Shown: positions 4,652 through 23,684 of the stretch, one piece after another
Position numbering within the stretch: the stretch's first letter is position 1
Layout: each line of letters begins with the position of its first letter
Program-made: the position numbers and the translations under genes
Notes under the pieces: generated by a model
Database searches by the model: none
What the model saw: only the letters and a program-made list of their open reading frames with translations
Told to the model about the DNA's origin: nothing
Origin: a virus
Length of the DNA: 35,877 nt
IMG/VR virus record: IMGVR_UViG_3300049893_001114
Location: 1 to 35,877 of that record
Reading direction: 5' to 3' (one strand)

Positions 4652-6745
4652 TTACGTTTTATCCGCTAGACTTTGCGCTGTTTCTGTGTATGCCTCTGCT
4701 GCGGCTGGACTAACGATAGCATCTGCGCCCATTGATGCCGATATTTTATTGAGCGTACCAGCCATAGTGTTCAGCATTTGCACCATTTGCGATTGCTGCT
4801 CATATTGCGAGTCTATCCGCCTGTTCTGCAATTCTATTTGCTGCATGGTTTGTTCAAAGTCCAGCTTTTGCTGGGCCTGCTCGGCTTTTATTAGTGCGAC
4901 TTGTGTATCTGCCTGAACTTTCTGAGTTTGGGCTTGGGCCTTCTCGGTTTCAGCTTGTGCGATTAATGCCGCTGGGTCTGGCTGTTGCGGTTGTGATGCT
5001 GCCGCCTCGACCATTTTCTTTTCTTCATCGGTTAGCTGCGACTCTGGAATTTGCCCCGAATTGACCTTTTTAATGCGTATCCGCTCGGCCAGTTTATCCA
5101 TTCCTGGGGCGTCGATGGCGCCCACAAAAATATCTTTGCCTTCTTCGATTATTGAAGGGTCAATAGCTCCGAGCGACTCAATCTTACGAACCGTCTCTTC
5201 GCGTTTGCTTCTAAACGCTACGCCAATATCGCAATAAACATCATAGCTGCCTTCGGTTAAATCATTGACTTTAACAGGGCCGTTTTCAGTCTGGATAACC
5301 TCGTATAAAACTGCGTTTTCGTAGCTGCCATCCTCGCCAATCGTGCGAACTTCTTTTTCTGTGTCGTGCAGTCGTGGGTAGGCCCTGATACAGATTTTTG
5401 CTAGCTGAAGAATAAATCGCTTAGTCGCATTGAAAAACTCTAATTGTCCAACGTCACCTTTGTGCTGAATCATTTCAATCGCTTCGGCAGATTGACGAGC
5501 AAACTGCTTACCATCGGCAGGGCCAAACATGCCGCTAGAATCATCTAGGCCGCCACGGGCCAATTCAATGACGTTTAATAGCGCTGGGTTTACCGCTGGA
5601 GCATCCATAACGAAAGGAGGCGCAACACCGTCAACGTGATCATAAAATTGTACGGGGTCATTGTTTTTATTGATTGTTTTTAGCTTGTCGGTGTAGTTTT
5701 TAAAGTGGTCCTTAACGGCAAATATTTTGCCTTTTGGAGCTAGAGCTGTATCACTTACATAACGACTAGCCGAATAATTTAATACGCGCTGCTCGTCAAC
5801 CATATCAACCAGCATACCGTGACTAGTTGGCTTGTTATTGATAATTTCGAAATAGGGCAACAACGGCACAACGGGCAACAAATCAAAGACCGTTTCTTCC
5901 TCTTCGTTTAGCCAGTTTTCTGAGTCATAAAAACGAGAGCATATTTTGTATGAGCGTTTTACTCTTGACTTTACGCCAGATAAATCAGCGCCCGCCTTTT
6001 CAAGCTCTTTGTAGTCCTCTTCGCCAATTACATCACCACCAGGTAACTGATAGATTTTTTTATTGCCCCACTTTTTATAAAACAGTTGCGAAACAATAGT
6101 CCCGCTACGGTTGTGACAAAATGAGTTATTGCGAGAGTGATCTGATAATGATTTCGCAGCCTTGGCTTTATCTTCACCAAATAGCTCCTCTAGCTCATCA
6201 TCGGATAGGTGGTGATCTACCGTTACAGCCTCAGCATCTTCGGCCACGTTCGACTGCCAATTGCCGAAAAACCATACTCGGTTTATGGCGTCTGGTACTG
6301 ATCGAATAAATAGCGTTTGATCGAATGAGTCTGGGTCGCAGTATTCCTGCTCAATCATCGCGCAGTCAAAACCACAGACCATACCACGCCTGGCTGCTTT
6401 GGCGTAAATGTCTTGGGCGCGTGAATCGTACTCAGTAGCACGGAATAGTCCAGCTAAGATAGCGGCCGTCTTTTCTTCACCGTCACCGCTGGCGGGCTTT
6501 ACGTTAACCTGAACATCTTGCGAAGCCAGCTCGCCCCACGCTTTATTTAGCTTGCCCTTTGCCTTGTTAAAGCTGAATCGCGGACGGTTGTAGGTTTCAA
6601 AATCCTCATAGACTGTATCTTCCCAAAATCCATCTTTTTTTGCATCCATAATAATCAGATCGCGCATTTCATCGCGCAAATCCGATTCCACTTCTTGAGC
6701 TAGTTCGCGCTCTTTTATGACTTTTCTGTGATCGTCCCACTTCAT
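4652..6745 (-). CDS. P22 gp1-like portal protein
   Basis: 697 aa; P22 portal is 725 aa. It forms the dodecameric ring at one vertex through which DNA is packaged and ejected. The N-terminal third has the family's signature stretch (YNRPRFSFNKAKGKLNKAWG) and Trp/Pro-rich core strands. The last 110 residues are Gln/Ala-rich and helical (SQPQQPDPAALIAQAE onward), like the long C-terminal barrel of P22 portal. It begins ten bases after the terminase stop and follows both terminase genes, as in P22. Confidence 0.93.
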   Translation of the reverse strand: MKWDDHRKVIKERELAQEVESDLRDEMRDLIIMDAKKDGFWEDTVYEDFETYNRPRFSFNKAKGKLNKAWGELASQDVQVNVKPASGDGEEKTAAILAGLFRATEYDSRAQDIYAKAARRGMVCGFDCAMIEQEYCDPDSFDQTLFIRSVPDAINRVWFFGNWQSNVAEDAEAVTVDHHLSDDELEELFGEDKAKAAKSLSDHSRNNSFCHNRSGTIVSQLFYKKWGNKKIYQLPGGDVIGEEDYKELEKAGADLSGVKSRVKRSYKICSRFYDSENWLNEEEETVFDLLPVVPLLPYFEIINNKPTSHGMLVDMVDEQRVLNYSASRYVSDTALAPKGKIFAVKDHFKNYTDKLKTINKNNDPVQFYDHVDGVAPPFVMDAPAVNPALLNVIELARGGLDDSSGMFGPADGKQFARQSAEAIEMIQHKGDVGQLEFFNATKRFILQLAKICIRAYPRLHDTEKEVRTIGEDGSYENAVLYEVIQTENGPVKVNDLTEGSYDVYCDIGVAFRSKREETVRKIESLGAIDPSIIEEGKDIFVGAIDAPGMDKLAERIRIKKVNSGQIPESQLTDEEKKMVEAAASQPQQPDPAALIAQAETEKAQAQTQKVQADTQVALIKAEQAQQKLDFEQTMQQIELQNRRIDSQYEQQSQMVQMLNTMAGTLNKISASMGADAIVSPAAAEAYTETAQSLADKT

Positions 6746-20344: not shown

Positions 20345-20516
20345 TGGATAAATGTTGATCGCGGAGTAAAATTCCATCAGCCAAACTTGTTACAGTCCCC
20401 AAGTATTTATTTTTTACGATAACCTGGAATCGCTCAGCGCTTTCCCGTGCGAATATGCACTTGTATTTAGCTCGGTTTGATTCGTACTCTTCCATTTCTC
20501 GATCAAATTCTTTCAT
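20337..20516 (-). CDS. 59-aa hypothetical protein
   Basis: MKEFDREMEEYESNRAKYKC, then ERFQVIVKNKYLGTVTSLAD. An acidic helix is followed by a small beta unit. GGAGAG lies eight bases before the ATG. Overlaps the P-like gene by 14 bases. About 60 bases separate it from the IbrB-like gene. Confidence 0.6.
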   Translation of the reverse strand: MKEFDREMEEYESNRAKYKCIFARESAERFQVIVKNKYLGTVTSLADGILLRDQHLSKV

Positions 20517-21057
20517 TTTTTATTCTCTCCAGTCGTTCTAAATCAGCCTTTTCGGCATCGGTTAAAGGTTTTGGCTCTGGCTTATCGTCTAGCATGGCTA
20601 AAAGCTCTTGGCAGCGCTCTGAGCCTGTTTTATATCGTTGTTGCTTGTGCTCCATTGGTTCGGGTAGTCCTAGGGGTTTAAAGTGATTGTATGCGCCTGC
20701 CTGAACGCCTTCTTGAATTACCGCCTCGGCAGTTCCGTCAATCACCCCGATTACCTTGGGAATAGTTAAAAATCTGTAATCAGCATGGTTAGCGGCCATG
20801 AGCTTGCGAAGCTTTTCAAATCCTTGGTCAACTTGCTCCTTGGTGAAGTGGCGTAGCTTGTTGGCGTAGTCGCGCTTGGTTATCGACTCGGTGCGCTCGT
20901 CTGGCATGGCTTGAGCGTAAAAGCGCTGATCACTAAGCTTTAGCTTTGCGAAGAAGTACGCAATAACGTTGCGCTCGTTTTCATCAAGTGGAAGCATTGG
21001 CTTTGCTGGTTCGCGTTGATTGGTGTAACCAATTAAGCCTTTTTCGTAATCGCTCAT
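20503..21057 (-). CDS. lambda P-like replication protein (helicase loader)
   Basis: 184 aa. Lambda P brings the host DnaB helicase to O at the origin. Similar features here are an N-terminal helical region with YFFAKLKLSDQRF, then FTKEQVDQGFEKLRKLMAAN, and a hydrophobic strand RFLTIPKVIGV, which line up with the central part of lambda P. The protein is shorter than lambda P (233 aa), and the end is acidic and Lys-rich. Order directly after the O-like gene supports the call; the one-base overlap indicates coupling. Confidence 0.68.
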   Translation of the reverse strand: MSDYEKGLIGYTNQREPAKPMLPLDENERNVIAYFFAKLKLSDQRFYAQAMPDERTESITKRDYANKLRHFTKEQVDQGFEKLRKLMAANHADYRFLTIPKVIGVIDGTAEAVIQEGVQAGAYNHFKPLGLPEPMEHKQQRYKTGSERCQELLAMLDDKPEPKPLTDAEKADLERLERIKNERI

Positions 21058-21809
21058 CAGAAGTTCCTCGCGCGTTCTAGGTCAAAAGTGTAGGCGTTGC
21101 GTTCGGCTTGTTTCTCTGCTGCTGTTTTGTATTGGCCCTGTGCAGAGTTTTGCATCCATTGAACCTCAAAACCTCGCCATCCACGGGTAACGCATTCAGC
21201 TATGCATTGGTCAACTGAGTAGCCAAAGGTTGCCGCCTTGCGTAGCTCAACAGCAAAGCGGTTGATAACAGTTTGGCTAACATTGGCTTTGAGCCTTTTG
21301 CGCATAGATAGCCAGTCTGCCATAGTCTGATCGCTTGGCATTGAAGGCCAGCAAGAGTAATCGAGTTGAACTTTTTTAGGCGCAGCCGTTTGAGCCGTAG
21401 GCGATAATGATTCTATGACGGTTCTATTTGACGGTTCTATGACGGTTCTGGGTGCAGCTCCTGCACTGGGGGGGTGCAGCTCCTGCACTGGGGGGGGTGC
21501 AGCTCCTGCACTACCTAGTGAATCTCCTGCACTACCTACCAACATATTTTTATTGATTTTGTACATGTTTGAAGTTTGTTCGCCAGCCTTGAATCTGCTT
21601 TCAACTGAAAGAAATCCGCTATCAACTAACGCGCCAATATGATTGATTACGCTTCTACGAGACATTTCACACTGTGATGCGATAGTTGCAAATGAAGGCC
21701 AGCACTCCCCATCATCGTTTGCGTTGTCGCATAGCTTCAAAAGGACTAGCTTTCTAAGTGGGTTATTTACCCTTGCATCAAATGCAAAAGTTAGGTATTT
21801 GATGCTCAT
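21057..21809 (-). CDS. lambda O-like replication initiator containing the origin
   Basis: 250 aa. The N-terminal winged helix-turn-helix (DGECWPSFATIASQCEMSRR, residues 33-52) binds origin DNA. A low-complexity linker (about 93-140, rich in Ala, Gly and Pro) covers the iterons at 21451-21536. The C-terminal domain would bind the P-like loader. As in lambda, the origin is inside the initiator gene. The start overlaps the stop of the HNH-like gene by four bases (ATGA). Confidence 0.83.
   Translation of the reverse strand: MSIKYLTFAFDARVNNPLRKLVLLKLCDNANDDGECWPSFATIASQCEMSRRSVINHIGALVDSGFLSVESRFKAGEQTSNMYKINKNMLVGSAGDSLGSAGAAPPPVQELHPPSAGAAPRTVIEPSNRTVIESLSPTAQTAAPKKVQLDYSCWPSMPSDQTMADWLSMRKRLKANVSQTVINRFAVELRKAATFGYSVDQCIAECVTRGWRGFEVQWMQNSAQGQYKTAAEKQAERNAYTFDLERARNF
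21451..21536. other. replication origin: iterons inside the O-like gene
   Basis: Three perfect 17-base repeats GGTGCAGCTCCTGCACT begin at 21451, 21473 and 21496, with a fourth half-copy at 21524-21536. The period of 22-23 bases places them on one face of the helix. Each holds the palindrome GTGCAG-ctc-CTGCAC. Because the period is not a multiple of three, the repeats encode different residues in each copy, so the conservation is at DNA level. A GACGGTTCT direct repeat (three copies) follows at about 21418-21449. Confidence 0.88.
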
Positions 21810-22426
21810 TGTTGTTTATCCACTGACAAGGTAAATTTTTCTGCTATTCTTCTAAGCGCTTCTGAAACACGGCTATTATTTTCTTCGATTGAAAGCTGTA
21901 TTGAAATTTCTGCTTTTCTCTTTTTCCATGCATTCGCAGCATCAGAAACACAACTAAAAACACCTAAATGCTCTTGTTTCTTTGAAAAAGGATTTCTACA
22001 TCTTGCTATTAGAACTCCCTTACTTTTATGAAACATAACACCTATTGGATATTTACCCCTTTTCGAACCGCAATCAGTTAAAAAGCTATTGACTCTATGA
22101 GAAACAAAGCAGCACTTTTCAGGGGAATAAATATTATTACCATTATCAATAATATCCTTATCGAGCTGCTTTCCTTGCCAATCTTGAGATTCCATCCATT
22201 TTTTAAAATTGGAAAAAGTTAGCCAATCATGGCATACAATGCAGTCACTATATGTAGGATTTTTTTTATGAAAATTTGATGAATAACACCTCTGAAGCAT
22301 GTTCACCCATGTTCTGTAATATGGGCAAACCCATAACCTTATTTTTTTATTATTTTTTTGCTCTGTTATTGATGTTTTATAATTTGAATCGTTAATTCCG
22401 ATCCCATACACATTTTTTTTATGCAT
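21806..22426 (-). CDS. homing-endonuclease-like (HNH/AP2-type) protein
   Basis: 206 aa. The pattern CPYYRTWVNMLQRCYS, CIVCHDWLTFSNFKKWM and LDKDIIDNGNNIYSPEKCCF is that of a family common in phages, often described as HNH or AP2-linked homing-type nucleases. A C-terminal helix carries basic residues. The gene is visibly richer in A and T than its neighbours, which suggests recent arrival. Its start lies right at the end of a long hairpin with a T-run, so its translation is likely tied to that structure. Nuclease activity is not shown. Confidence 0.6.
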   Translation of the reverse strand: MHKKNVYGIGINDSNYKTSITEQKNNKKIRLWVCPYYRTWVNMLQRCYSSNFHKKNPTYSDCIVCHDWLTFSNFKKWMESQDWQGKQLDKDIIDNGNNIYSPEKCCFVSHRVNSFLTDCGSKRGKYPIGVMFHKSKGVLIARCRNPFSKKQEHLGVFSCVSDAANAWKKRKAEISIQLSIEENNSRVSEALRRIAEKFTLSVDKQQ

Positions 22427-22531
22427 AAAAAAACGCCTTTAGAGTAGCCCTTGGAGACAGATACCGTGACCAGGTACTGGCAAAAAGGATTAGCCATTGT
22501 TTACGGTAAACAAGAGCCACTCTAAAAGCGT
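22427..22531 (-). terminator. long hairpin with T-run directly before the HNH-like gene
   Basis: On the minus strand the arm at 22531-22511 pairs with the arm at 22453-22433 over 21 bp with three G-U pairs and no bulge, closing a branched loop, and is followed by seven T up to the ATG at 22426. It therefore acts as a possible terminator or attenuator. The likely ribosome site (AAAGG) is in the 3' arm, so folding would also hide the start of translation. Confidence 0.75.
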
Positions 22532-22614
22532 CTAAAGTCTACCTAGTTCTTTTCCCGCCCTCTGTCACAAAGGCACCTTTCGGCTAAGGGTAGCGCGTTC
22601 GTTTCCTACTAGCG
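22427..22614 (-). ncRNA. leader RNA of the replication operon or small phage RNA
   Basis: About 190 nt from the promoter at 22622-22649 to the T-run. Inside are further hairpins: GTTTA-ccg-TAAAC, CAGTACC with GGTATCTG, AAAGG-tg-CCTTT, and a GCGC pair near the 5' end. There is no ORF of note. It could be a terminated small RNA or a switch controlling the HNH, O and P genes. It matches no riboswitch class I can recall. Confidence 0.6.
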
Positions 22615-22621
22615 CACATTA

Positions 22622-22649
22622 ATTATACCATCATGTTCAAAAAACTCAA
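22622..22649 (-). promoter_or_regulatory. sigma-70-type promoter for the leader RNA / replication operon
   Basis: -35 TTGAGT (22649-22644), 16-base spacer, perfect -10 TATAAT (22627-22622). Transcription would start near 22615 and run into the structured leader. Confidence 0.72.
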
Positions 22650-22654
22650 TTATA

Positions 22655-22735
22655 TGTACACAAACCAACCATATGTACATTTGACAAAATGGCGTTTATA
22701 TGGCCTAAGCGTCCTTAGTCCTTGGACTGTGTACA
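22655..22735. promoter_or_regulatory. TGTACA sites upstream of the promoter
   Basis: The palindromic hexamer TGTACA occurs at 22655-22660, 22674-22679 (19 bases apart, same face of the helix) and 22730-22735. The first lies just upstream of the -35 box. A further palindrome AGTCC-tt-GGACT is at 22717-22728. They look like sites for a phage or host regulator. The rest of the stretch 22650-22775 holds no gene. Confidence 0.5.
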
Positions 22736-22774
22736 TGTTTTCATAAATAAAAACCTAAGTGGTTGATATTTAAG

Positions 22775-23030: not shown

Positions 23031-23115
23031 ATATAACAATGTTATGAAACGGATGCGGCATAACACCGTGTTTTAAATTACTACCTACTGCGCACCGTTT
23101 ATAACGGCGTTAGCT
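23031..23115 (-). other. attC site 6 (family II)
   Basis: 85 bp. Minus strand: R'' AGCTAAC, spacer GCC, L'' GTTATAAACGG, loop, L' CCGTTTCATAAC (extra C), spacer ATT, R' GTTATAT. L arms pair over 11 bp with one extrahelical base. Same length and design as site 2, with compensating changes in the L arms (AAGCGG/CCGCTT there, AAACGG/CCGTTT here). Confidence 0.93.
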
Positions 23116-23335: not shown

Positions 23336-23391
23336 AGCTAACAAGGCGTACCATCCGACAGCTACGCTGCGGCTGTACATTGGCGTTACAT
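23336..23391 (-). other. attC site 5 (family I)
   Basis: 56 bp, the shortest site. Minus strand: R'' ATGTAAC, spacer GCCAAT, arm GTACAGCCG, inner hairpin CAGC-gta-GCTG, arm CGGATGGTAC (one extra G), spacer GCCTT, R' GTTAGCT. Nearly the whole site pairs, as in short attC sites of classical resistance cassettes. Confidence 0.9.
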
Positions 23392-23609: not shown

Positions 23610-23684
23610 ATGTAACGAGTCGTTGCAGCACACTACGCTGCGCTTCGCTGGATGCTTTCGGCACCGCTGAACTAGGCGTTATGC
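23610..23684 (-). other. attC site 4 (family III)
   Basis: 75 bp. Minus strand: R'' GCATAAC, spacer GCCTA, L'' GTTCAGC, loop, L' GCTGCAAC (extra C), spacer GACTC, R' GTTACAT. Same arms as site 3. The stop codon of the phage gene at 23679 lies in R''. Confidence 0.9.

Follow-up and report, generated by a model that had tools for sequence, protein, structure and literature searches.

What is the structured segment that separates a promoter from the first replication-associated gene of this virus, and does it control the genes behind it? The window, by which we mean the whole analysed stretch of 35,877 nucleotides (IMG/VR virus record IMGVR_UViG_3300049893_001114), had been annotated in a first pass from its letters only. 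A consensus -10 promoter was proposed to start an RNA of about 190 nt that ends in a long stem with a T-run at the ATG of the next gene, with no strand given. This arrangement is indeed present, and all parts of the leader sit on the minus strand of the 35.9-kb record (Table 1), with a predicted RNA start at about position 22614 and a predicted length of about 187 nt through the end of the T-run. The proposed 21-bp stem (S) exists as well, its length being 20 bp without a bulge, or 23 bp with the AGA/UUU extension included, and it encloses a 57-nt loop. The ribosome site was rightly placed inside this stem: the AAAGG motif in the 3' arm lies 9 nt from the ATG and is the sole ribosome site in reach of the HNH gene, whose start codon is spaced 7 nt from the stem. 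As for the genes behind the leader, the HNH-like and O-like assignments were borne out by family matches, while the gene called P occupies the corresponding position without a family match. Further downstream are ParB-like, PAPS-reductase-like, NinB, NinG, and P22-type terminase and portal genes. The order of the genes is lambda-like, and the searched subset of the ORFs of this virus contained no recognisable repressor, integrase, N, or Q.

Table 1. Features of the leader and of the genes behind it, in window coordinates; names of the leader parts are used throughout the text.
Feature	Position	Strand	Details
Promoter	22622-22649	-	-35 TTGAGT 22644-22649, 16-nt spacer, -10 TATAAT 22622-22627; sequence and consensus match
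Variable 5' hairpin GCGC..GCGC	22593-22615	-	fold and alignments
Hairpin H	22557-22574	-	hexaloop a = GUGACA at 22563-22568
b (CUAGGUA)	22540-22546	-	partner b' in the terminator loop; by-eye reading, family-wide statistics
S5, 5' arm of stem S	22511-22530	-	20-bp terminator stem
I5 (ACCGU)	22503-22507	-	partner I3; alignment count
b' (UACCUGG)	22470-22476	-	family-level b/b' statistics
I3 (ACGGU)	22463-22467	-	partner I5; alignment count
a' (UGUCUC)	22454-22459	-	partner hexaloop a, 5/6 in the window; immediately adjoins S3
S3, 3' arm of stem S	22434-22453	-	Shine-Dalgarno AAAGG inside, 22436-22440
T7 run	22427-22433	-	putative terminator (intrinsic-terminator-like hairpin); abuts ATG 22424-22426
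First gene, HNH endonuclease-like	21806-22426	-	phrog_953, E 7e-84
Second gene, replication initiation O-like	21057-21809	-	phrog_678, E 1e-33
Third gene, in P position	20503-21057	-	no family match

TGTACAT-type motifs recur around the promoter (window 22653-22740) and look like candidate repressor operators, and a perfect 20-nt palindrome, TTTTTTTATGCATAAAAAAA (window 22414-22433), extends across the T-run and into the opening codons of the HNH gene. TTGTTTACCGTAAACAA was also considered as a DNA operator and was rejected, its arm length varying in step between copies. Three imperfect inverted repeats of the form TAAC...GGCGTTA (window 23034-23112, 23339-23388, and 23613-23681) are spaced by about 275 nt, and the intervals hold tiny minus-strand ORFs; this arrangement resembles integron attC sites with gene cassettes, but the predicted hairpins are weak.

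Taken alone, the fold of the window copy would not have been convincing, since it is only moderately better than that of shuffled sequences (z -2.36 on the minus strand, 1/200 shuffles; z -1.85 on the plus strand). This modest value of about -2.4 would fit an ordinary terminator hairpin with a remainder formed by chance, whereas relatives with the same stem reached z-scores of -5.5, -2.8, -4.1, -6.3, and -4.3. The chance explanation is practically negligible in view of two further results that are described below, namely compensatory changes throughout the RNA and a structure scan that returned 12 members of the family compared with a single match in resampled sequence.

The relatives were collected by several routes. 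A blastn search with the RNA against phage and plasmid collections gave nothing informative. Loci were fetched via the neighbouring O, exonuclease, and ParB-like genes and then searched with nhmmer, which yielded two clear copies (L045 and L058), and DNA patterns derived from the conserved loop added L140, L142, L143, L152, and L163. A scan that required only a long stem with a T-run and a start codon recovered L054, L056, and L060, which the sequence search had missed, and with a hexaloop match added it recovered L035, L059, L077, and Chlorobiaceae phage CV-1-33 (MT192033.1). The copy in this phage, situated 28 nt upstream of an O-like gene, is the weakest member, with only 5 pairs in b/b'. 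A covariance model without pseudoknots (R1) found L187, a second copy in L059, L038/L039, and L201 and L231, which are two contigs of one gammaproteobacterial MAG. Altogether 20 copies were obtained from viral contigs, one named phage, and two MAG contigs by means of DNA patterns, the covariance model, and the architecture scan; a doubtful 21st (L043) fits only in part and was excluded from the counts. In 2.0 Mb the architecture scan gave 14 matches, 12 of them belonging to the leader family, compared with 1 in first-order Markov-resampled sequence. The minus-strand match in L045 only shadows the RNA and was rejected, and L088 was set aside as a probable chance match. The pattern match in L139 was likewise due to chance, and most matches of a second pattern scan (L144-L179) were unrelated, except L152 and L163. 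The HNH protein led to one weak locus, this gene being widespread (1,362 matching phage records). In the scan, the phages that are closest in portal protein (Pseudoalteromonas H6/1 and Vibrio 5P1a) yielded no copy, and the exact 3' pattern did not occur in the genome contigs. A different recurrent element, GAATTGTCGCCAAGGGCGACTTCGGAGTTTTTTATGAG, with its T-run against an ATG, was observed in L147 (1362-1390, minus strand) and also in L156, L157, L159, and L178.

As comparison of the copies shows, the predicted architecture consists of hairpin H, stem S, two pseudoknots docking onto the loop of S, and a gene start directly behind S. Along the RNA the order is a variable 5' hairpin, H with hexaloop a, b, S5, I5, b', I3, a', S3, the U-run, and the start codon; the GCGC..GCGC hairpin at the 5' end is missing from some relatives according to the alignments. 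In all relatives the hexaloop of the upstream hairpin (GUNRNN) pairs with the six bases adjoining S3, and in nearly all of them the pre-stem segment b forms a second helix with b' in the terminator loop. Both helices cross S without sharing bases with it. The leader with several hairpins proposed in the first-pass annotation is thus structured, yet the two pseudoknots that tie its upstream part to the terminator loop had been overlooked. In the window itself a/a' forms five of six pairs with one U-U, and b/b' (CUAGGUA/UACCUGG), a by-eye reading that includes one G-U, is not the longest Watson-Crick match of this copy, which is another pairing.

Covariation carries the structural claim. Its absence among relatives had been named beforehand as the observation that would speak against the proposal, and it is both present and strong in S, a/a', and b/b'. 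Across 18 copies, two-sided changes occur in 11 of the 12 innermost pairs of S and at four of the six positions of a/a'. The a/a' helix is Watson-Crick paired at 102 of 108 positions (106 of 108 when all standard pairs are counted), in a count for which S3 was placed partly via the a/a' match and L060 was given the neighbouring register. When partners were reassigned between copies, the mean was 69.8 and the maximum 88 Watson-Crick pairs in 20,000 reassignments. For b/b', the longest Watson-Crick match with the own partner averages 6.7 pairs compared with 5.1 for swapped partners (p<1/20,000, where the copies are related sequences and reassignment p-values are not strict probabilities). In an alignment of 10 sequences, 99% of a/a' together with the I helix is paired, and the covariation score reaches 0.38, compared with 0.17 for shuffled and at most 0.09 for slid sequences. 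L035, the first copy of L059 (L059a), L077, and CV-1-33 were recovered by requiring a/a' complementarity, the other copies not being selected on it; the cleanest test is given by the copies from the pseudoknot-free model, which show new matching a/a' sequences. Nine hexaloops, each matched by its own partner, were found (GUGACA, GUGGUG, GUGAGA, GUGGAA, GUAGCU, GUCAGA, GUCGAA, GUAGCA, and GUGGUA). On these comparative grounds the RNA is almost certainly structured and conserved.

Constant letters are almost absent between subtypes, the exceptions being the GU of the hexaloop, the AC that it pairs with, and the stem junction. This bears on the idea of a metabolite riboswitch, to which a complex leader with an expression platform made of a terminator and a masked ribosome site would be well suited. 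Since almost no nucleotide is conserved between subtypes, there is no constant ligand pocket, and the genes downstream are not metabolic; nor did any Rfam model match, so that a riboswitch appears very unlikely. The first-pass annotation had recognised no known class, which agrees with the covariance-model search of the window against Rfam 15 (4,227 families), in which no match was obtained, and with the interval 22400-22700, where none appeared up to E 5. At the gathering threshold, 11 loci gave no match either, and in four loci only chance-level snoRNA models were hit, elsewhere in those loci.

The genes behind the leader change from copy to copy and include, by sequence resemblance except where searched, HNH (at least two kinds), Rha-like, AntA-like, zinc-ribbon, helicase, and O-like genes. 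Despite this, the start codon lies 3-7 nt past S in most copies, S comprises 16-23 nearly perfect base pairs beside the start codon, and a purine-rich ribosome site falls within S3 in most copies. L035, L056, and L059a lack a ribosome site inside S; in L035 and L059a the start codon is about 20 nt past S, and in L054 and L056 a short reading frame overlapping the main start begins at the first ATG. The L077 copy (T-run at 5948, minus strand) is found upstream of a gene resembling an ERF-type recombination gene, and the 200 nt next to the RNA contain no start of an ORF of at least 70 aa. T-runs are 5-8 long except in L187, the second copy of L059 (L059b), and L038, where they are 3-4. These three retain S and the adjacent AUG, indicating that termination is not the sole conserved feature. 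In L059, two leader units stand in series: that at 83-210 has T8 and leads to a Rha-like gene, and that at 926-1064 has T3 and leads to an HNH gene. Upstream of the copies there is a promoter-like site, with modest enrichment (7/18 above the background 95th percentile). Because the first genes change and S and the start codon are retained, we read the conserved unit as promoter, knotted leader, and start codon, behind which the gene is exchangeable.

An alternative is that the leader is a stand-alone small RNA of the phage, which would have a promoter and terminator of its own and act on other targets, the next gene merely abutting it in a compact genome. A promoter-like site, a structured body, and a T-run in most copies are what such an RNA would display, and the genes behind it are unrelated. 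Its independence from these genes is nevertheless hard to reconcile with a start codon that keeps within 3-7 nt of the stem in most copies, and stays next to it even without a full T-run, and with the ribosome site that many copies carry in S3. Moreover, the interval between S and the gene leaves no room for another promoter, and the next gene has no second one. We consider a stand-alone RNA unlikely.

We favour, with a probability of roughly 0.55, a new family of pseudoknotted leader RNAs that gate early phage operons through termination and ribosome-site masking; a structured leader ending in a terminator-like hairpin upstream of the HNH and O genes, as first proposed, is supported by the comparisons. 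From this promoter the replication genes are reached only by transcripts that get past S, which would thus act as the gate. By default, many transcripts would stop at the T-run and yield the RNA of about 190 nt, and those that read through would be poorly translated, with S hiding the ribosome site. With a strong T-run the gate would thus control transcription, and in most copies the masked ribosome site would let it control translation. How well S terminates is uncertain, as intrinsic terminators do not typically combine a 20-bp stem with a 40-60-nt loop, and the three copies with short U-runs (3-4) would hardly terminate. Since a' and b' leave the polymerase before S3, docking would precede or accompany the closure of S, and both pseudoknots are placed to set the speed of that closure, on which the passage of polymerase and ribosome may depend. 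Since both helices cross S and take none of its bases, pre-folding could accelerate its closure; alternatively they could delay it, as a 20-bp stem would be hard to wind inside a loop that is closed beforehand, and the sign of the effect may be either. Candidate triggers are a host factor, a phage protein, polymerase speed, or a short RNA on sister transcripts. A more speculative extension, to which we give a low probability, is a new class of phage regulatory RNA: the self-matching hexaloop and the second pseudoknot would tie the nascent leader around its terminator, topology or the matching leaders of sister phages, not a ligand, would decide transcription and translation of the replication operon, and the changing loop code would serve as an RNA identity tag between phages.

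Long stems beside a ribosome site also have a processing precedent. The lambda N leader is an early phage leader in which a long RNase III stem stands beside the ribosome site of the first gene, as S adjoins that of the first gene here. Cleavage of S in the manner of this leader or of the T7 early message could free the ribosome site, and 16-23 nearly perfect base pairs adjoining the start codon are compatible with it. As the principal function, this seems improbable, since it leaves two pseudoknots and T-runs of 5-8 in most copies unexplained, and the present leader differs from that of lambda in having two covarying pseudoknots and no recognised nut site or N protein; RNase III cleavage could still act alongside the gating proposed above. 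Put RNA of phage HK022 is likewise a structured RNA directly behind an early promoter, and it consists of two simple stem-loops without a terminator of its own. A similar RNA that acts on the polymerase to pass later terminators would fit the position of the leader and the finding that no N or Q protein was recognised among the searched ORFs. By its description, however, put differs from a leader knotted to its own terminator stem, and we regard such a function as very improbable.

A circuit in trans is a more serious competitor, though still an improbable one. P1 c4 is a cleaved antisense RNA in which a pair of short complementary segments is followed by a ribosome site, ahead of antirepressor genes. 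The leader shares the two complementary segments and the downstream ribosome site, but c4 is cleaved and antisense and the leader has no Rfam match. In a circuit of the IsrK, P4 CI, or P1 c4 type, the short leader, terminated or processed, would act in trans on the leaders of sister transcripts via a/a' and b/b', the outcome would be immunity, copy sensing, or activation, and loop differences would define specificity types. All hexaloops begin with GUNR and are U-turn-like, as in antisense RNAs, where YUNR is the U-turn-like recognition loop (PMC4485353), the a/a' and b/b' sequences diverge freely and still match, and several of the first genes are antirepressor-like (Rha, AntA). In IsrK and P4, in addition, a short RNA that ends at a terminator exists alongside a readthrough mRNA (PMC4825925). 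On the other hand, the matching strands lie within one molecule and would pair in cis first, there is no known processing site, and no Rfam model matched in cmscan with all models, that of isrK included. For P1 c4 and P4 CI no catalogued match was obtained in the same search, whether or not the models include them.

Among described systems, IsrK of the Gifsy-1 prophage is a phage RNA with its own promoter and terminator, a readthrough mRNA with a masked ribosome site, and an antirepressor-type gene downstream (PMC4825925), all of which recall the leader. No pseudoknot is reported for it there, however, it shares no sequence or Rfam match with the leader, and its ribosome site serves an ORF that lies past the terminator, whereas that of the leader lies inside the terminator stem in most copies. 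The P4 leader and CI RNA provide a parallel, in that short upstream and downstream pairings steer premature termination within a leader that precedes replication genes (PMC4825925). CI RNA differs in being processed and trans-acting, while the matched strands of the present leader sit in one molecule and would knot its own terminator. Literature searches for the leader architecture returned no matching description among the papers covered. Our best reading of these analogies is that the leader resembles IsrK and the P4 leader in logic, not in structure; by logic it appears to belong with phage attenuator leaders and by structure to be a family of its own.

The leader thus represents a structured RNA family that is absent from Rfam, has covariation evidence, and is located where phages begin expressing their replication genes, and it is common to viruses whose first genes are unrelated. 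Packing a terminator and a masked start site together with two pseudoknots into about 190 nt would yield a compact control device, and viral annotation would gain a marker for the start of early operons.
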